Shown: positions 17,864 through 47,125 of the stretch, piece by piece
How the letters are laid out: every line of letters begins with the position of its first letter
Numbering within the stretch: the stretch's first letter is position 1
Assembly (NCBI GenBank): GCA_914767715.1
Contig: OU612074.1
Coordinates: forward strand, 8,387,501-8,451,500
DNA: 64,000 nt
Source of the DNA: Membranipora membranacea
Taxonomy: Eukaryota > Bryozoa > Gymnolaemata > Cheilostomatida > Membraniporidae
Direction of reading: 5' to 3'
Program-made: the position numbers and the translations under genes
The notes under the pieces: generated by a model
Database searches by the model: none
Seen by the model: only the letters and a program-made list of their open reading frames with translations
Told to the model about the DNA's origin: nothing

Positions 17864-19784
17864 GTTACCCCTCAAATGCCATGTTTATTTTCTAAAATGC
17901 GTTGGGCACTATATTTGTGACAGGTTTGATGAGGGTTTCAGAAAGATTGTAAATTTAAACATCCAGCAGCTGTAACATCGCAATAATGATGATCTTATAG
18001 CAATATAATATGATGTCATCAATGGAAACAAGATTGTAGCCTCCAATCTTCTGGCCAGCACTGATGAGAAAACCAAGTGCATGTTAATTGAGTGGTTTTA
18101 AGGTTCCCAGGCTACAGGTTAACAATAATTGCCCAATATCTTACTATGTAAATATCTCCACGTACTCAACTATGCGGTGGTTTTCATTCACAACTCTGTC
18201 CCATTCAGTGGCCTTGCCATTATAGTTAGTATTATTACAACAGCCTTTTTACCGCCAGATTGTTAACATCATATAAATTATTATTTGTCACATATCTTAT
18301 GAGTGTATAGCAGTTTGCAGTCGTTAATACAATTCTTGCGCAGACGTGAGTATGAATGTTTTGTCACCAATCAGCTCTTGCCTACAAGGTAATGAATGAA
18401 TATCAGCTTTCTTGCACTTGACAGAGATCTTTAATAATTGTCCAGACAGATTTAAAAGGTGATTTTTTTTCAGTCTTACCATCCATGCAACAATATCACC
18501 CCAATCTCTTGTTTCTCAAGGTTGTGATACACTACCAGTCAGCATCCTAATAGTCACAGATTTCTCACTTGAACATTTGGTTTCTCCCAGAACCCTGACC
18601 TGTAAGACTGTGCTGTCTCACAGGCTTCATGTGTATATCCTTTCCCGCACTTTCAGGTTGGTTTTCTTTGCACCATAAGGTTTGGATTAATCCAAATGAG
18701 CTCGAGCGCTCAGATTGAAACCTCACCCCTCCGCATCGGGTAAATGTTGGCTTCTATATGCAAAATGTAATTCAGACAATTGGGCCACTTTGTTGCACCG
18801 TCGCTAGGTGCAGAGGGACTCGTATCTCAAAGTCAATCAGCAGGCAGTGTGGCTTTTACATGATCGTGAGAACCTCTTGCAATATGGCTGGGAAGTGTTT
18901 CATATTGCATTGAACATATTAGATAGGAGATTGAACCTATAGGGTCTGGCGGTAAGCATTCTGCAGGCGTATGTTCATAAGTTTAATTTTTGTCGTGATT
19001 CCCATTCACCTCAGAATTAAAGGAAGTAAATGCTCTCATATCTAAATTTAGCAACCTGGGCAAGAAATATGAATTACTGACAATTGTATAAATATTACAA
19101 AATATTTTGAAAAGACTAACATTGCAATATTTGCCAAAATGTTTCAATTAGGACTCAAAATCAAATACCTCTAAAAACCTTTTTCAACATGTAGGGTAAG
19201 ACATCTCTCGCTGAAGTCCTATTTTACATTATATATTATGGATGGTGATTTCCTATAGGCCTACCACATCAGACAGATTCAGTGGTAAGGGAAATGAGGG
19301 ATACACTTGGTGCAGAGCCGCCAGGCTATATATATACCTATGAATTTCTTTCGCAGCAACAATATTATCTGGAACTTTAATCGTAGCAGTATCAGTCGGA
19401 AGATTTGCATTATATTACATATATATATATACATCAGATATCTTTAAAAATTGTATTCTGAAGCAGGTCCTGCTTGGTATACCATATATTTTAAGGCTTG
19501 GTTGATCGCAGGATACGGCTAAATATATCATTTTGTCAAGAAAAACACATAATCCTTTATTTATCCTCCACTTATTCAGATCAATTGCTTCAGTCCAGAA
19601 CCTTAACTGGGATGACGCATCCCAACATGGAGCCGTTTGCTGGAGAAAAAAGAAGCAAGGCCACCAGAATTTCCCAACTTTGATATATATGAGAGTGTTG
19701 TCCTGTTCATGTGACTTTGAATGTCCTCTAATAATTTATGCTACCATCAATTCCTCAGCAGTCAGAACTTTGAGTCATAACCTA

Positions 19785-21095
19785 GCTGTGGGAAACCTGA
19801 CCCTGGGAAAACCCTAGCTGTAGGGAAAACCAAGCCCTGGGGAAAAATGTAATATGGGGAAACCCCAGCAGTGGGGAAGACCAATCTCTGAGGAAAACCA
19901 AGCTGTGGGAAAATCCCAGCGGTGGGGAAATCCCCTCCCAGGGGAAAACCGATCAGTGGGGGAAACCAATCGGTCGGGAAACCGAGCTATTAGGACATCC
20001 CAGCAGTATGGATATCCCATCCCAGGGAAAAAACTGAGCTGTGGGAAAACCGAGCTGTTGGGAAATCCTATCAGTGGGAAATCCCAGCCCTGGGAAAACC
20101 AATCTGTGGGAAGAACACAACCCTGAGAGAAAAAACGAGCTAGTAGGTAAATTCGCGGCCTTGGTATTTATATTAAATAATCAATAAATAATCAATGGAA
20201 ATCCCATTTTCATTGGGAAATCCAACTTGAATTCAAGTTGTCTCCCTGTTACCAATGAGGAGATAATTCTAAGTTTCATGACATGAAACTTAGAATTATC
20301 TCCTCATTGGTGATATGGAGACTTGAATTCAAGTTGGATTCAGTTGGATTTTCCAATGAAAATGGGATTTCCATTGATTATTTATTGATTATTTAATATA
20401 TATACCAAGGTCGCGAATTTACCTATTGGGAATACCCAGCTGTGGGAACATCTCAGCCCCAGGAAAACCGAGATGTGGGGATAACCCAACCCTGGGGAAA
20501 ATCGAGCTAAGGGGAAATCCAAGCCCAGAAGAAATCCCAGCCCAGGGGAAAACCGATCTGTGGGTGAAGCCCATCCTTTGGAAAAACCGAACTATGGGGA
20601 TATCCCAGCTGTGGGACAAAAGGAACTGTTGTAAGATCCCAGCCCTGGGGAAAACCCAACAGTGGGGAAAACCAAGCTAATGGGAAATCCCAACAATCGG
20701 AAAATCCCAGCATTGGAGAGAACCGAGCTAATTGGAAACCCTTGCAGTTGGGAAATCCCAGCCCAGGGAAAATCGCTCTGTGGGGAAAGCCCAGCCCTGG
20801 GACAAACCGATCAGTGGGGAAAACCAAGCAGTAGGGAAATCCAGGTTTATGGAAAAACCGATCTGCGGGGAAAACCCATCCCTTGGGAAAACCCAACTAC
20901 AGGGAAATCCCAGCAGTGGAAAAATCCCATGCCAGGGGAAAACCCATTCCTGAGGACAACCGAGCTATTGGGAAATCCCAGCAGTGGGGAAAACCCAGTC
21001 CTAGGGAAACCCAAGCTGGGGGGAAATCCAGTCCTTGGGAAAACCTTGCTATGGGGAAGCCAAGCTGTCAGGATACCCAAGCCCCGGGGAAAGTC
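19785..21095. repeat. GGGAAA(T/A)CCC minisatellite
   Basis: Roughly 1.0 kb of degenerate tandem units of about 15-18 bases, each a variant of GGGGAAA(A/T)CC(C/G)AGC followed by (A/C)(G/C)TG or CCTG. It is split into two blocks, about 19785-20143 and 20426-21095, by the palindrome at 20144-20425. Each unit is itself partly palindromic, so both strands read alike. Many units contain GGGAAATCCC or GGGGAAAACCC. Confidence 0.9.
20144..20425. mobile_element. 282-bp near-perfect palindrome (fold-back MITE) inside the minisatellite
   Basis: Starts TAGGTAAATTCGCG and ends CGCGAATTTACCTA; the two halves are reverse complements over almost their full 140 bases, meeting at TTTCATGACATGAAA near 20281. 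A few small indels distinguish the arms. The flanking GAGCTA / TTGGGAA reconstitutes a minisatellite unit, so it inserted after the array existed, perhaps with a 2-3 bp (TA or CTA) duplication. No coding capacity. Confidence 0.85.
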
Positions 21096-37212: not shown

Positions 37213-40200
37213 TTAATGAACGCCATTCTGAGGGGAAGCAACTTCGCCATTTGCGGTTTCATCTGCAAAATAAGAGAGAAATTAATTGATGTTCTTATAG
37301 CCTTTAATCTGTTTGCAATCAGCTTTTTGTCATACTTTCTATTCATCAAACTACTCTTTTGAAAAGAAATGTTCCCAGTGTGAACAACATCATTGTTAAC
37401 CCATTTTTCAATTGATTAAACTGAACTATTGACCTAATAGTAAATTTATCAAAATATGGCGAAACAGACATGGTAAAGAAGTCCAAGTTCAAGTTTTGTG
37501 ATACCTCCATCCTAGCCTGGGCAGGTTGTCTGGGGTGGGTGCCAGACAGCCTGCCCAGGCTACCTCAGTGCTTCATCATTCACATCATAAAAATCATTTA
37601 ATAAAATGATTAAAGATTGACAATCAATCAACAATGTATATATCCGGTTGAAAAAGGGTGGACGAGAAAGGAATACATTCACTGAAATGCCGGATCTTTT
37701 GACACCTTTCAAACATCCAGTATTAAATCAGCCTATCCATCCTCAGAAGTGATTTAAAGTTTCTAATGCATATCATTTTGAAAGGTAAACTTACTACTGT
37801 CTTTGTGTGAGTGTATATTGATGAGTCCTTGTTTCTCCATACGATCAGCTACTGCTGCCACGTAGGCTGCACCGAATCCGCTACCATCCTTTACTAGAAT
37901 GAACTTAGTCTACAAAAGAGATTAGATGTTTGATGATGAGAAGATAAAGGTAGAAGTAGTCAAATTATCTGAGAGCTATCCTAGCTTGTATCAAGACCTA
38001 TCGTTCTAACTTTCCATCAATTCTTATGTATATCCGTTTCAGCTGTTTATCATTGATCATTGGAACAGGAGAGAGATATCAATCAAACTTTGAAAGTTGT
38101 CAGACTGTTTTCTTTTGCAGATTCTATTGTGGAATTAAATTTTGTTTCCACCTTGACGGTTTCGTGGTATTCCATTATATAACACTTGCAAGTTTGATCA
38201 TGGATATCACCAGATGGGGGCTATTTGAACTCTCAGTCTCTATGCCCAGGCTGATATCACTATCCTAAATACAATTTTCATATAATATTATATAAAGTTT
38301 TGTGTGAATCATATACCATCTGATGCATACAATTATAATGTGGTATAACATTACATATGTTTATTGATGACACATACCTCCGTGGCAGGTATAAGATGTG
38401 CGACGAATTCTCTCATCATATTAGGTATAGTGGGATGAAGCTCAAATAACGATCCGTCTATAGCCACTGTAACCTTCTCCTTATGTATATGCTGTAGTAG
38501 TACTGTCAGCGCTGTCAACATTTAGATCAAAGTAATTATGTAAACCAATGAACTTCCTCATCCCCAGGAAAAACAACAAGGCCATATTAACCAATCAACA
38601 ATCAGTATGGCTGTAGCTATGTCTGTGACATTTTGAAAGACATTTGTTAATGTTGAGAGGGAGTTCATTGTGTGATCTAGACCAGCCATGCTCAGCCTCG
38701 GCCAAATCGGCCAATCCGGCCAAATGGGTCATTTTGTTCGGCCAAATGCGCCCTTACGGCAAAAAATAATTGAGGCACATTCTCTCGTCATATAAATAAA
38801 CAAATTTAAAAGCAAAAAATGTAAGCCGTCCTTCAGCACTTGCCCACATTGTGGAGGTATGTTTTGAGGCAAGAAGTCAGTTCGCCTTGGTAATGCCGCA
38901 AAGAGGGTGGGTGAGAGCAGTACAAGTTTATTCCTTCTGGTGGTGGATCGAAATTGAAAAAGTTAGGCATCAAGGCACCAGGCCTTGATAAACAACTTCT
39001 TAAATAACCTTCCAGACGGAAAAAAACCTAGCAAACTATCAATTGTTTTGGCTCTGATTGGTGGGTGGGTGGGAGAATAAAGTACCATATGGACCTGGCA
39101 TTGGCTCTTTTTCTCCTCACCCACCAATCAGAGCCAACACATTGGCAAGTGAAAACAGGAGGCTTATTGGCAAGTGATACCACTTACCAGAGGAGAGAAT
39201 CTTAGCAGCTCTGTTGGATACAGATGCACACAGATACTTTATTATTAACAAATCATCAGCTGAAGGGTTCACTACTCCATGATCCTTGAGAATCTTTTCA
39301 ACTGCCGTGTTGACCTCCGCAGCATCACTGAAATTACATGATAATTTTACATAAAACAATCAAGTATTCAGTCTTATTATAGAGGCAGTTTGGCGATAGT
39401 AGGATAAAATTGGTCGCTTTCATCCACTGCAGGATTTGATACTAGATCTTGGATATACCTCATTATGAATAAGTATATTATATTAGTCAGTCATTTCTGG
39501 CAAGTCTGTGTTGTTTCCAACTAACCTATCAGGCAGTGAGGAGATTTGTGCCATAAAACTAAACTTGGCCGGTATATTATTTAGCCTTTAGCACACATAA
39601 ACAAGCAAAACTAAAAAAACTAAGCTCTAGCTTATACGTATTCCTCTTACAGACAAAACATGTTGTTTCCCTGGCCATCGGATAAGATGATGGTGACCAT
39701 ACTGACTACACAACTTATTTATTTCAGACCCACCTCTCAATAACTGACACATTTTTGGTAGGGAATGAGTGATATGTGTGTATCCACTCTATCTCTGATT
39801 TAGGAGTATCAGTAAACATCAGTCCTTCCTTCTCTAGCTGTACGATTGTCCATCTTACAATCTCACCAAGAAACAAACCAGCAAACAACTTCTCAAACCT
39901 GACAACATTGAAATAATAGTGGTGGGATGCAATGATTTGGGATAATAAAGAAACATTGTACCATGTTATACATACCATAATATAAATAATTGTTTATTGC
40001 AAAAGGTGAACTAATTACTGTGAAAATCATTGCTGCAAATCCTGAACACGGTCAGATCCGCAATGATCTTTAATCACGACCCTCATAAATGGAATTTGGA
40101 TACAGTTAGTTATTATTTCACAGTATCTGGTTGATCTCATGAAAGAGATGGGGGTTTTAACCATTAAACTATCTTGTGTGACAGACTCACGTAAAAGATC

Positions 40201-40338
40201 CTACATGGTTTGAGTGTTTATCTACTTGAAAGTCAGGCCAAAGCTTGAAGAAGTCAAGGACACCATTATCTCCGAAAGCTCCCCATTCAATATCTATGAT
40301 CTCCTTCAAAATAAAAGCAAGAATATTTTGCGTAATTG

Positions 40339-40374
<36 letters not shown>

Positions 40375-43300
40375 TTCAAGTATAACAATAATACCGGACG
40401 CCAAAGAGTTGTGTTACCTTTGGGTAAGAAAAAATAACTCTAAAGCATTTCTAGTTCGCATCAAATCAGATGTGAATGCTTCAGTAATTGCAGCCAGTTC
40501 CATTCGAACATTAGCACATTGAAACGGGGGTTCGTCTGGCCAGTTAATTTGGATTGTGGTCGAATTGTAAAAGTAGCTGAAAAGAAGAGCCCTCTCATTT
40601 TGACCACTTCTCAACCCATTCTAACCGATGCATACCAAGAACTTCAGATTTTATTTTGATTGGGAGCCATGGCGAATATTCTACAAAGTCATACCAAGTC
40701 AAGTCACATGACATACAAACATGACTTGCGACTTGGCTCTAAGTGGCTTGACTCTATATGTGACTTTGTAAATTGAATACCTGAGATCCAGCCTTGAGAT
40801 CACCTGACCATTTATCTACTCTGTCTAAGTATTCTATATAAGCTGCATTACTCCCTGTACCTGAAAACAAAACAAAGCCTTTGATCCGAGTATGGTCAGC
40901 ATGATAGCGAGGGTTTGAGTGAGGTTGTCACATTAAAAGTCTGAGCTTCGATTCATACTTGTTGTCGGTTTGAGGATCTTGGGTAACGGATTTCATTCAC
41001 AAACCAGGAACAGTATATGTTGCAGAGGGGAATTTAAGACAAAGGAAGCGGTATTATCCATGCCCACACTGGGGTTGGTCTCCTAGATCCCAAATGAGCA
41101 TTGCTTTCAAAGAATAGTTTCCACAGAACCTTGCGTAATTTAATGTTGATCTAGAGCCTATTCAACAATGCACCAAATGTGACAGATTTATTTACTCTAC
41201 CATTTGATCATTTGTTTGTTTCATGGCCGTATAGTATAATATCATTTACAGGTAACATACTGTCTGGGTTGCTGATAGTGGCTTACTATTATCAACCACA
41301 GGTTGGGCTGTGGTTGATAGTGGAACGCCACTATCAGCAACATCTGCAGGGTTTGTACTTTTATTTACCCATAATAATTCCAACAGCACAATTCTGATCT
41401 TCATAAGCGCCAGTCATCAAAGTACCAACTGTATCATTAAGTATGGCTTCTACTGTCACATTTATTTTCTGCAACAAAACATGAGATCAAGTATTAGATT
41501 TACTCAAATAAGTTTATTGCTACAAGGGGGCAAATTTCCACAGTCCCACAATGCAATATTAATTAGAAATTCAAAGAGGGATCAAATCAGATTTTTCTTT
41601 GATCTGATCTGAGAGGAGACTCAAAAATCGGAAGTACATATCTTTAAAAAGTTGTAATTTGACTAGTCTAGTGGAACAATGATTAGGATGTTAGGGAAAT
41701 AGTGGAACACTTTTTGTTAGATCGCGTAAAAGTGAAAAAATGTCACCAGCCAACAAAAAGACCCTGCCTGATTATAATTGACTCAGTTGGTACATTGATG
41801 ACAAGCTGCCATTATGAGTGATGATGTCATACCGATGCCGAGACCTATATCTGTACTGGAGTCTTCATATGAACCTGTCATCAATACACCAACTACATCA
41901 TTGATTATAGCCACTACCCGTATAGCATTCTGCATGTCAGCCTATTTGTCAATGATTACAAATTATAATTTTGAACTTTTATTCAAGCATCAGAGTTAAC
42001 ACACAGCAGTGTACGAAATATTGGCGAATAAAGCGTAACGATAACGTTCCCATAATCCAACAGGACCTGGAATTGTGAAGAGAGACTAAATCAAACCAAG
42101 CCAATGCGTTAACTCTGATTCACTCAACTCAACCAATCAGAGCCAACACATTGGCTAGTTCGAACCCTGTCTTTGTCATCAAGACAAGACCATTTCGTCA
42201 GGATGTAAAAACCTGAATGATGCCAGACAGCGACTACCAGGTATAGTTTTCTTACAATTTAGCTTGTAATCAACAACAAAAGCATACAAGAAAAGTTTGT
42301 TTTGTTAAAACTTGAACTCTGTACAACAGACTAGACTAGCTGGCTCACCCTTCTTTTGAAAGCATCTTCTAACATTTGAACCACATCTTGATTTTCACAT
42401 CCTGTACATTTGAACTTCTTAGTCCATGTAAGAAGTAAGGCACTGTTCAAACTGCTCTGCACCATTGGAAAGGAAAACGTGAAACCTGAAATAATAAAAG
42501 TAATGTTTGTAGGTAATGATCACATATCACATAATGTGACATGGTCATTATAATTATAGCATCACTGTGCTTTAAATAAACCCACCCCCCCCCCCCCCCC
42601 CCCACCCCGATAAGCCAAGATGGCAAACGACACAAATAAGAGTTGTCCCTTCACAATATTGCACACATTTTTAGAAAAAGCCAGTGATATGGGGAACTGT
42701 TGACTCTATGCTAGCTGAAGTGCTCAAAGTCTCGCCCTTGTTCTTGATATGGTAGGATTCATGATCAACCACATCCAAATCTGTTATTGATATTAAGATG
42801 GTCTTCCAGCAATCATGGCAGAGTTTGGGCACTAACTCTATAACATCCTTTGATCTATGTGGTTGTCATCTGTTTGAACAATTATATGTCAATATGTCTT
42901 TTGAATGTCAACACCCATGTTGTTTCCTTCAAGAAACCACATCACATGGCTTCGATAGCAATCCATACAAGTACTATTTACTATTTACACATTCTGCTGT
43001 ATATGTAATCTATTACATCACTTCACCTTATTTAAGACTTGCCATCCCACCCCCTCAGTGGCTCAGTTATCGAAGGATCAATCTCGAGTTTTGCCAAGTT
43101 TTGATATTGCATATAGTTAGAAAAATATTGATGTGAAAAAACGCGTCTCTATAATTTACTTATCATTTAGAAGGGGAAGTAGGGACAGGAAGTGGGGAGA
43201 ATTTGCAGAGGCTGACATCCTGTCTGGAGTGTATATTTTTTTGTACATAGGGGGCTTAGATACATACCTAGAGGAATAGGGTTTTCGCTTTTTATGTTTT

Positions 43301-46300
43301 CACTCTTTATGAGGTGAGCCACACAATCAGCCAGGAAATCCATCAGTTCTACTCCTGTACCAACCAGGATACTAAAATAACACAAACAATGGTAATAACG
43401 TTACTTGCTTGTGAGTTTTCACACAAAAATGTTGGAAGTGGCAAGACTAGAAAAAAAGCACATTTGTTATACTCTGTCCGATTCTCCCAAAAGGAGAGAT
43501 GAGGTCGGCTTGGGTTAGGTGTGTTATAAATATTGTTATAGCAATACTGTATGAAACACATCGATGGTAGAGGAGTTCACTTTGAACGAGGTAGCTCACA
43601 AGTCGCCTGCATACCTACATAGGTTATCGATATATTGACTGATAATATGTTGGGATTCCAATGATTGAGTATAGCCTAGTTGTCAGCTAACCAAACTAAG
43701 GGTTCAAAATTATTATGGTGAAACTCCCCCCTCAAAATCCCTGTGCCCCATCTTTTCTGTGTGTACTCTACAGGGCTAAGTTGAAACTATTTGAGCTATG
43801 ACCGCAAAAGTCAGTGTTTCTTTGATCGGTCCAAATATGAGATTAACTTACTTATCAGGTATAACATAGTAGTGTGGCATAGTCTTTGTTCTCACTCCGT
43901 TTCTCATCTCAACATAAATAACTCTAAAGTTTGTTCCCCCTAGATCTAATGCCAGGTAGTCTCCATGTTCTAAGATAAACAAGTACAATAACAGAGAAGA
44001 AGATCTAAGAAAAACACCAGCGCTCCCAAATCATTGTGCAGGTTCATGGATGTCGTTGTTTGTCTGTAAGCCATATTCTCCTCACAATTATGCTAAACAA
44101 CCAGGATCTGGTGACAGTTTCAACCCAATCGTGTCAGGGTCTGGTCTGGTAACATTCAGAATGTGTAGGTTTGTCCAAATTCTTGCAGAAAACTGCTCTA
44201 TGACACTGTACAGAGACCCACAATGTAGGCTCAGCCGGACAACTTGCTTGCTGATGCAGTATTTAAAGAGACCAAAGACCCAATATAATGAATATATTAT
44301 CATGATGAAGTCCATACCATAATATTAGTCAAGACATGAATCGACATACAAATAGTATTTTCACAATGCAACTCTAGTATATACTAACAATGCATTCAGA
44401 CCCGCACCATGTTACCTTTGTCCTGATCTCAATGGGAATTCCAAAATTGAGCATTTTGTGATACCTAATCTAACAGCAGTATTTAGCATCACACAAAAGA
44501 CCCATTGAGTTAATTGTCTCGGTCTCAATACTCGATACCTGTTGAAATTCTCTCTAACCTTGTCCACATGGCTACTTTTTTTTGTGTTGTTTCCCAAAAC
44601 AAAAAAAGTTGCTGCTTGACAAGGCTAAATTCTCTCAGCTTACCAGTTCCATCGATAGTCTGATGTACGAATGTATTCTCCATCTGTAGTGAGCTCTTTT
44701 TACGATCCTCAGATTTCCTGCTCAGCCCAAGAGACATCTCAGACTCCATGACCTGCATGATCTGTCTCATCTGAGCTTCAGTAAGGTTATAACCTCCTAC
44801 TAACGCTTCTACCTGCAATCATAGGAAATAATGGGAACTTCTAAAAGTCATCATGGTTAAAATATGGATGAAATCCTTGAACGAAGTCATAAATTCCAGG
44901 TAACTTCACGAACCCTTCGTACAATTATCTCTATCCTGTGGAAAGTTTTGCCTAAATGAAATTTCATTGAATTTCAAAATAAAATAGTTCGGGTGTAGCA
45001 ATTTGTCATATAGATGGATCACCGCAGGGGCTGTCGTTGGCAATGTCAGTAATAAATCAAGCTGCAATCATTTTACCCACTCCTAGGTTGCTCAACTGAA
45101 ATACACAGCCAGCTGGCTTACAAAGAAGATGTCACTGGATGTATTTTGGATGGATATTAAGGAAAAAGCACAGCATATTGAGGTCAGGGTACCCTGATTT
45201 TTGGGACTGCAGCTGACCCTCCGCAGGTGTTGTAAATTTTGGGTACTGTACAGTTTCTCAACAGCACAATAATATATTGTCCACAGTTTAACCTTAGAAG
45301 GACTCTCTGATAAGCCAAACAAGTAGTGGAGGAACTGCTGGGGTAACAACTGCTGTCATTTTGTTTTTACTTTAGATCTCAGAAGGGGGAACAACATGAT
45401 TCTGCATGCTGTTATACAGCTCTACCACTGGCTAACATGACCAATGGTGAGAATTTACAGCATTTTCACCCAACAACCACAACAATAGCTTTGAATATTT
45501 TCTGGTACACAATCTGTAAATACATTCAACTTATATCAGTTCCATAAATTAACTGCGATCTGGATAGATCTGGCTTGACACTGCACTTATTTTGGAAAAC
45601 CAGATTTCCCTCAATCTCATATAACTTGTAATAGATCCTGGTAATTCCAGGATAGAGTGCCAAAATAGACTTTGATATACATCATGGTACCGCAAGTTAT
45701 GTCTGATGATGCATCAGCTAAGAGCATGGTGTTAGCATGGTGTTAGTATTTATAATCTTTGGTGTTAGCCTGTGATAATGTAGTTTAAGTGCTCAAACGG
45801 TGCAAGATGCTGGTAGAGGCATTTCATTATCAACCACTTTCTCCCCTCGTGGTTGATAATGAAATGCCTCTACCAGCATCTTGCACCGTTTCAGCACTTA
45901 AACTAGTGATAATGTAATCCTACCATGAATATTACGTTTGGGGAAAAATTGAAGATCCCAAGCAATGATAGATGACTTACTACAGCCAATGATTTAGTTC
46001 ATTGCTACAGCTGCCAATGATCACAACAACAAATTCCTCCCTGCCGTTATTGGAACGTTCAAGACCAGTTACTGTTTGCTGATTTGGTATGGAAAGACCA
46101 AGTTCACGCTAAATCCTGATTATAAGAGAACAAATTATTCAAGATCTAGTAAAATTATTGTCTTATTATTTTAAGGCAAATAGCTATTGTATTTTTCTAT
46201 GACTACTTTTCTATCTGCCTTCAGAAACAGCCACTGGCAGGGAGTATTTGAGTTTTGAGTTCATGACAATTGATGAGAGGTTCAATATTTCTTAGTACAG

Positions 46301-47125
46301 CTAATGACACAGGCCAAACTTAGCCTAAATCCAGGCCTAGATCATGCTTGTTGGGGATGACAGTATTAAATTGGTTCCATTCATGTTATGCACATTGTTT
46401 AATGCGTAGAACACATCACATTGTCAGCTGTGACTTTCACTGATTTTATCATTATATTTTTAATGTGAGACTCTATGTGGTCGGAGTAAATGTGTCTGAT
46501 GTGCCACCATTTTAAGTGCATATTGTCCGAGATTATCTTTGATTTTGGCACTGACACAATGCAGCTTTTGACTTCGATTTGTCTTGGCCGTCATATCGGT
46601 GGCAGATATGTCTACTAGTAACACAGCTGATACCACTGGTTAGACCATATACGAACTCAATTTTGACTACTCAGCTCTTGATCGTTAGATTCCAACTGAA
46701 TTTAGTTGTCAGACGATTCAGAGAATGCAGGATATCGCCATGCCCTCTACAGTATATAAATCTGTCTTGCCTAGCAAACACAATTCAGAATTTTCAACAC
46801 GACTTGGAGATGGCAGTGAATTGAGCATCTTGGGTTATTTATCATATTGTGCTAAATGAAAATAGCCTTTGTCGAGCTAGTCTGGATCCCGATGATAGCT
46901 TAATGAGCAGGCACCCTTTGGCTCTCCTGCCCAGACTATTTGGCAGCTTGCAATTGGATGCTTGGCACAACAAATTTATGACACCTGTGCTCAAGGGTGC
47001 AGCAGTACTGCCTCTTGTGCAAACTGAGGGCAGTAGTTAGCCAAGTTTTCAAAGCGGACGCTTACCTTGTCAAAACGTGGTCCACTAGGAAGAGTAATCC
47101 GTCGCTTCTCCAAAATAGACGCCAT
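37213..47125 (-). CDS. Hexokinase, 50-kDa single-domain type, complete
   Basis: Phosphorylates glucose with ATP, first step of glycolysis. Exons on the minus strand: 47066-47125, 44644-44812, 43852-43969, 43268-43371, 42349-42485, then either 41833-41941 (6a) or 41369-41468 (6b), then 40781-40860, 40191-40303, 39734-39898, 39188-39327, 38378-38511, 37795-37909, 37213-37262. The protein is 497 aa with 6a or 494 aa with 6b, one catalytic domain as in glucokinase-size enzymes. All phases join. Motifs (6a numbering): DLGGTNFR at 85-92 (phosphate loop), LTWTKKF about 169-175 (glucose Thr-Lys), Asn-Asp 210-211 (glucose, catalytic Asp), GTGSN 233-237, EWGAFGD from 265, FEKLFAG from 298 (glucose Glu 299), IDGSLF from 416 and KDGSGFGAA from 450 (ATP). 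The start ATG has G at -3 and +4. No mitochondrial-binding hydrophobic N terminus is evident. The short final exon (NGVH end) rests on splice signal and phase only. Confidence 0.93.
37513..37562. repeat. Strong short hairpin
   Basis: Arms of 21 bases (TAGCCTGGGCAGGTTGTCTGG and its near-exact reverse complement, one mismatch) around an 8-base loop, in the last hexokinase intron. GC-rich compared with its surroundings. Could be a tiny fold-back element or an expressed hairpin RNA. Confidence 0.75.
39048..39137. repeat. Inverted repeat, 20-bp perfect arms
   Basis: TTGGCTCTGATTGGTGGGTG at 39048-39067 pairs exactly with 39118-39137. It lies 50 bases past the donor of the exon at 39188-39327. A related ACCAATCAGAGCCAACACATTGGC segment occurs near 42130, also in a hexokinase intron, indicating a repeat family. 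Confidence 0.75.
40343..40372. repeat. (TA)n microsatellite
   Basis: About 15 AT dinucleotides in the hexokinase intron between exons 7 and 8. Confidence 0.95.
41268..41341. repeat. Fold-back element beside hexokinase exon 6b
   Basis: 34-base arms (41268-41301 and 41308-41341) with four mismatches around a 6-base loop; the outer 15 bases (GTTGCTGATAGTGGC) pair perfectly. It begins 27 bases past the exon 6b donor in transcript direction. It shares ATTATCAACCAC with the element at 45781-45905. Confidence 0.8.
41369..41468 (-). other. Hexokinase alternative exon 6b
   Basis: 100 nt, phase 0 to phase 1, acceptor TTGCAG and donor GTAAAT. It encodes 33 residues plus a split Gly, including [17 protein letters not shown], closer to the usual NDTVGT motif of animal hexokinases. 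It aligns with exon 6a (16 of the last 31 residues identical by eye), so the two arose by exon duplication. Using both or neither shifts the frame. Confidence 0.85.
41833..41941 (-). other. Hexokinase alternative exon 6a
   Basis: 109 nt, entering in phase 0 and leaving in phase 1, with acceptor ATAG and donor GTATGA. It encodes 36 residues plus a split Gly, including [17 protein letters not shown]. The Asn-Asp pair that binds glucose is kept; the Thr usual after Asn-Asp is Val, as is the Thr three places later. Confidence 0.85.
42585..42603. repeat. Poly-C/G run
   Basis: 19 consecutive C on the plus strand (G on the hexokinase strand) in the intron between exons 4 and 5, about 100 bases upstream of the exon 5 acceptor. 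Confidence 0.95.
45781..45905. mobile_element. Palindromic MITE with 9-bp target duplication
   Basis: 57-base arms (45781-45837 and 45849-45905) with one mismatch around an 11-base loop. The ends are TAGTTTAAGTGCT(C/G)AAACG. GTGATAATG flanks it directly on both sides (45772-45780 and 45906-45914), a 9-bp target site duplication as seen with Mutator-type transposases. It lies in hexokinase intron 1. Confidence 0.9.

Follow-up and report, generated by a model that had tools for sequence, protein, structure and literature searches.

A duplicated active-site exon and an inverted intronic copy of its core in a hexokinase gene of the bryozoan Membranipora membranacea

Described precedents for competing RNA structures and exon swaps

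The human ATE1 gene has mutually exclusive exons, 7a and 7b, for which the elements R1 and R4 are described as competing for R3 (PMC11802352, PMC8052449). In the docking-selector systems of Dscam, 14-3-3zeta, Mhc and srp, according to one published account, duplicated exons compete for a single element, and the model of Ivanov and Pervouchine presented there holds that such structures arise from duplications that copy one arm of a stem (PMC6071210). Among sugar kinases, ketohexokinase (KHK) has splice isoforms, KHK-A and KHK-C, which are reported to differ in their kinetics (PMC11332825). The region exchanged in KHK is described as homologous between the isoforms and adjacent to the active site, both isoforms having the catalytic arginine, and the same source indicates that the swapped duplicated exons of human genes tend to avoid ligand sites (PMC9741552).

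The window analysed here, a stretch of 64,000 nucleotides from the genome of Membranipora membranacea, contains a hexokinase gene in which exon 6 is present as two tandem copies, 6a and 6b, and in which an inverted copy of the exon-6 core, missed by the original prediction, lies in the intron just 3' of 6a. As in ATE1, there are two homologous exons and two sites that would compete for one element; unlike in ATE1, where the elements are intronic or overlap splice sites, the predicted arms in the hexokinase gene are the bodies of the exons. Tandem duplicated exons and competing pairings to one element are likenesses to the docking-selector systems as well, but the selectors of those systems are intronic and their pairing is considered to promote inclusion of the chosen exon, whereas in the hexokinase gene it is the exon itself that would be engaged in pairing, and the element sits between the two exons. 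Because its arms lie within 6a and 6b and not within introns, the hexokinase element would 'work like' a docking-selector element and is not a member of the classical layout. Ketohexokinase, also a sugar kinase and one whose fold family differs from that of hexokinase, is on its published description a precedent for the swap of duplicated exons beside an active site, but its swap has one ligand-contact residue, whereas the hexokinase swap spans the Asn-Asp core and two flanking threonines. The gene differs from ordinary glucokinases and single-domain hexokinases in that its exon 6 is duplicated and one copy reads NDVVGV; among the papers listed by a literature search there was no hexokinase or glucokinase whose exons are described as duplicated or mutually exclusive, and the novelty of the arrangement is provisional.

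The hexokinase gene and its exon 6 pair

A complete gene for a single-domain hexokinase, with 14 exons if 6a and 6b are each counted, occupies positions 37213-47125 of the window on the minus strand. It opens with a candidate exon 1 (47066..47125), which has a phase-0 GTAAGC donor and is a weak tblastn fit to the Watersipora N-terminus (E 3.2), and continues through exons 2 (44644..44812), 3 (43852..43969), 4 (43268..43371) and 5 (42349..42485), the last of which is constitutive, ends in phase 0 and lies upstream of the exon 6 pair. Downstream of the pair lie the constitutive exon 7 (40781..40860), with GTGSN, exon 8 (40191..40303), with EWGAFG, exons 9 (39734..39898), 10 (39188..39327), 11 (38378..38511) and 12 (37795..37909), and finally exon 13 (37213..37262), which holds the end of the coding sequence and the stop codon, all on the minus strand. 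With the candidate exon 1 included, the predicted protein has 497 residues with 6a and 494 with 6b; spliced from exon 2 on, the gene encodes 477 and 474 residues, respectively. Whichever copy is used, the domains PF00349 (Hexokinase_1) and PF03727 (Hexokinase_2) are matched over nearly their full lengths, with scores of 206.8 and 196.6 bits for the 6a form and 217.1 and 199.2 bits for the 6b form (cut-offs 24.3 and 24).

The best two single-domain relatives of this protein, among the 120 listed of 2866 matches, are bryozoan: Bugula neritina P0002 and Watersipora subatra P0003, with 62% identity each. The latter bears the name 'hexokinase-4-like isoform X2', a label which implies that another isoform has been predicted from the same Watersipora gene. 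When the 6b form is aligned to human hexokinase 1 (HK1), the sugar and nucleotide motifs are retained, as are the residues taken to bind the sugar and to act in catalysis, and the borders of exon 6 are presumably the same as in human GCK. No duplicated exons beyond 6a and 6b were found in the window by tblastn with both isoforms and with the Bugula and Watersipora proteins. The genome contains two paralogous hexokinases, C2 near 38.32 Mb and C1 near 35.90 Mb (L008, L009, L020), each with a single exon 6 between exons 5 and 7, and both carry NDTVGA, not NDTVGT, at the active site.

Elsewhere in the window are nine tRNA-Ser genes (anticodon AGA; 6711-34436), eight of them within 23-35 kb and several sitting in diverged repeated units; a degenerate tandem array (19781-21065) whose GGGAAAACCCAGC-like unit is about 17 nt long and which has long open frames on both strands; and an open frame at 112-462 on the plus strand, which we take to resemble an oxidoreductase of the Gfo/Idh/MocA type.

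Exons 6a (41833..41941, 109 nt) and 6b (41369..41468, 100 nt), both on the minus strand, enter in phase 0 and leave in phase 1; the original prediction had their coordinates, strand and phases right. Both have AG/GT borders and lengths of 1 mod 3, and splicing in both or neither breaks the frame, as had been predicted, with the first stop falling at residue 223 (both) or 185 (neither). The claim that both exons are open also holds, one copy alone, be it 6a or 6b, giving a full-length hexokinase, but openness by itself is weak evidence, since a neutral copy at the divergence of 6a and 6b remains stop-free in 41-46% of simulations. About 16 identical residues out of 31 had been reported, and tblastn within the window gives 51.6% identity over 31 residues (E 2.6e-5), while an ungapped comparison of 33 codons gives 15 identical residues. 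The Asn-Asp pair lies within the swapped segment and is present in both exons, and the motifs were read correctly as NDTVGT in 6b and NDVVGV in 6a, the positions that differ being both threonines of NDTVGT. The two exons are 464 nt apart, with 43 differences over 99 aligned positions, and an allelic or assembly duplicate was rejected on these grounds. A search for retrocopies that would record splicing found none, all 20 genome matches lying in the window gene or in the two paralogous loci. The 6a/6b pair is real; from its sequence we infer that both exons are used, and the best reading, because of their homology, their shared phase and the frame lock, is that this use is probably mutually exclusive.

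The splice sites of 6a score lowest in the gene, with values of -12.8 for the acceptor at 41941 and 1.5 for the donor, whereas those of 6b score 6.7 (acceptor) and 4.1 (donor); the scoring matrix was built from the gene's other sites and gives -9.9 for the acceptor of exon 12, so the scale is rough. A second possible acceptor of 6a, 12 nt downstream and scoring -10.2, would start the exon at 41929, with CAG before the junction and AAT after it, for a length of 97 nt that is also 1 mod 3; the residues ADMQ would then become intronic.

Among the readable motifs of the retrieved proteins (119 of 120 and 77 of 87 listed, in sets that lean towards vertebrates and arthropods), T, A and S are the residues found at the first Thr position, and T, A, C and, in one read seemingly running into an intron, K those at the second; none has Val at either position of the active site. 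The string NDVVAP in P0180 was rejected as an active-site motif, judged by its flanks. Single changes around the Thr positions are found in the nearest relatives, with NDAVGT in Bugula and NDTVAT in Watersipora. A search for a 6a-like exon in relatives with residues 165-230, by a method that requires shared 5-letter words, returned 12 candidates, none with E<=10, and a 199-residue query returned 87 matches, none with same-species-level identity across exon 6. Two predicted proteins, P0202 and P0203, from ENA contigs of 853 and 2000 bases, contain only an exon-8-like piece, 92% identical to that of the window, and judged by this identity DNA of a close relative is present in a public metagenome.

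The two Thr positions at which 6a and 6b differ are, by our own alignment and on numbering that we assume to be correct, T206 and T209 of human glucokinase. Variants T206M, T206R and T209M of that enzyme are reported among MODY2 cases (PMC7274558), and T206 is described as lying near residues of the glucose site and T209 near residues of the allosteric site (PMC4098773). The MODY2 variants suggest by analogy that the two positions matter; Val is not among them, so they make no prediction for 6a.

The inverted intronic element and its predicted pairings

The inverted copy of the exon-6 core (41765..41817, plus strand) occupies positions 16-68 of the intron after 6a and was first seen as an unexpected plus-strand match to the 6b segment in a tblastn search. 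Its ungapped 36-nt core (41771-41806) could pair at 32 of 36 positions with an arm of the same length in exon 6a (41873..41908, minus strand) and at 29 of 36 with one in exon 6b (41409..41444, minus strand). As inverted repeats, the element and 6a match at 76% of 33 nt, their arms lying 72 nt apart, and the element and 6b at 88% of 24 nt, with the arms 342 nt apart. Antisense alignment within +/-500 nt scores 37 for 6a and 41 for 6b, compared with 17-24 for the gene's 12 other exons and 18 and 19 for exon 6 of the paralogs; the 6a and 6b scores were each reached by 0 of 2000 shuffled introns, the best shuffle for 6b scoring 40 against 41. The element is the sole antisense 36-mer in the window that resembles both exons (26/36 and 27/36, the runner-up having 21 and 21), and the best result in 1000 shuffles of this test was 21, against 26 observed. 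No second match was found in the 339 Mb assembly, in a search that disregards simple repeats and very common words, either for the element (a 96-nt query) or for a 573-nt region, each of which matched only itself; a mobile repeat as the source of the element is not supported.

The exons differ from each other at nine of the 36 core sites, of which the element agrees with 6a at three, with 6b at four and with neither at two. The three 6a matches have a P of 0.03 if the element is a recent copy of 6b, and the four 6b matches a P of 0.006 if it is a recent copy of 6a. These values fit a recent copy of neither exon, so the element may date back roughly as far as the exon pair. Its retained match of 26-27 of 36 positions, set against near-saturation of the silent sites between the exons, is the best hint of selection on pairing, drawn from nine sites picked post hoc.

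Two near-perfect palindromes, with GTGGTTGATA common to both, occur at 45781-45905 (arms of 57 nt, 98% complementary) and at 41268-41341 (34 nt, 88%), the latter lying 28 nt past the 6b donor; from their sequences they look like short inverted-repeat elements.

A 611-nt segment of the pre-mRNA is predicted to fold at -142.1 kcal/mol, and in this structure 6a and the element share 44 pairs. When these pairs are forbidden, the predicted energy is -136.0 kcal/mol and the element makes 39 pairs with 6b instead; with both pairings forbidden the energy is -126.6 kcal/mol. The two competing predicted structures differ by 6 kcal/mol. The isolated duplexes with the element are predicted to be similarly stable, at -45.2 kcal/mol for 6a and -47.5 kcal/mol for 6b. 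The helix with 6a contains 23 unbroken pairs over 41873-41895, five of them G-U, starting at the first Val codon and ending at the Gly that follows MT, and the Asn-Asp codons fall in its interrupted outer part. The codon of the second Thr-to-Val change lies inside the run of 23 pairs, and its two differences from the element are both G-U compatible. Overall, G-U-compatible differences from the element number 6 of 10 for 6a and 2 of 9 for 6b, an excess that is not significant (P 0.17).

Neither of two regions compared with their shuffles folds better than these (z -1.12, with 24 of 200 as good, and z -0.41, with 7 of 20), and the intron-wide duplex energy was matched by 85 of 500 shuffles for 6a and by 1 of 500 for 6b. 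The donor of 6a is predicted to be unpaired at 0.46 with the element and at 0.30 with the element shuffled, and the core of exon 6a at 0.17 versus 0.35; because this prediction points to a more open donor instead of a less open one, the direction of the element's effect is uncertain. The predicted ensemble of 6b is unchanged by the element, because the 6a hairpin dominates at equilibrium.

We give an even chance to the reading that exon 6 underwent an old tandem duplication and that its copies are used singly, with the choice set by competing RNA structure. The element is probably a docking element for which 6a and 6b compete, in a model built on one species. The starting point would be an old tandem duplication of the exon for the Asn-Asp segment in a single-domain bryozoan hexokinase gene. 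Exon 6a and the element, being transcribed first, would form a local hairpin with about 70 nt between its arms and the 6a donor in its loop, and once 6b had been made the element could pair with it instead. Only a single pairing would exist at any time, and the exon tied up in it would be disfavoured while the other exon would be used. The frame lock would remove errors, as the inclusion of both exons or neither leads to an early stop, presumably followed by mRNA decay. Exon 6b is expected to give the default form and 6a the regulated form, because the splice sites of 6a score low. Such a gene would yield a standard hexokinase (6b, NDTVGT) alongside a variant (6a, NDVVGV) in which Asn-Asp is kept and both adjacent threonines are replaced; the variant would most likely have altered kinetics or lower turnover. 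The original prediction had proposed isoforms that might differ in glucose affinity or sugar preference. As modelled from one sequence, the RNA switch is a good lead.

A more far-reaching version, which we put forward tentatively and with considerable doubt, is that the gene carries a dual code, in which the active-site codons of both exons double as competing arms for one intronic antisense copy. The duplication would then have brought its own RNA switch, with the selectors in coding sequence, and NDVVGV would have evolved under the joint demands of catalysis and base-pairing.

Alternative readings and significance

Exon 6a might instead be a little-used, decaying or 'poison' copy, with 6b used nearly always and the occasional inclusion of 6a together with 6b only cutting mRNA output. 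Such a copy would be consistent with the lowest acceptor and donor scores in the gene, with the double change at the two Thr positions and with the finding that chance openness is not rare; yet 6a retains its phase, its length class and its Asn-Asp core. Compared pairwise, the two exons have a dN of 0.47, a dS of 2.04 and a pS of 0.70, which is close to saturation, and the exon duplication is old by this measure. The 15 of 33 residues that are kept exceed the 9.2 +/- 1.9 expected of a fully neutral copy (P 0.002), which argues against decay. The outcome of a one-sided model depends on how many silent changes are assigned to the 6b side: with 4 and 8 the P for neutrality is 0.01 and 0.017, against the decaying-copy reading, whereas with 12 and 16 it is 0.057 and 0.15, and neutrality of 6a is not rejected. 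Across models the P for neutrality of 6a alone spans 0.003-0.15, on pairwise data from one species. Coding constraint on 6a itself is likely, though not proven, and on balance we consider it unlikely that 6a is a copy of this kind.

A rather unlikely reading leaves the exons as they are and removes the switch: exclusion would need nothing beyond the frame lock, protein factors and the strength of the splice sites, and the element would be an inert relic of an inverted partial exon duplication. Overall fold energies are indeed unremarkable, and inverted repeats are common in the window, with 32 pairs of at least 20 nt within 600 nt, but a relic does not readily account for an element that is about as similar to 6a as to 6b and has unique states in common with either exon, that has kept its 26-27 positions despite near-saturated silent sites between the exons, and that has no such counterpart for the gene's other exons. 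It is very improbable that the hairpin between 6a and the element is a substrate of A-to-I RNA editing, the element being an editing-site complementary sequence with no splicing switch involved. An imperfect inverted copy of an exon in its downstream intron, able to pair at 32 of 36 positions, is compatible with editing, and insect nAChR alpha6 is reported to combine editing with the splicing of duplicated exons (PMC1919356); the element also pairs with 6b, however, a pairing for which an editing site in 6a has no need.

With single use of 6a and 6b under competing RNA structure as the preferred reading, the swap hits the active-site core of the enzyme with which glycolysis begins. If the element works, the locus would provide a compact test of exon duplication creating its own competing RNA structures, with the arms in coding sequence, and if both forms are made, a colonial animal would obtain two hexokinases from one gene.
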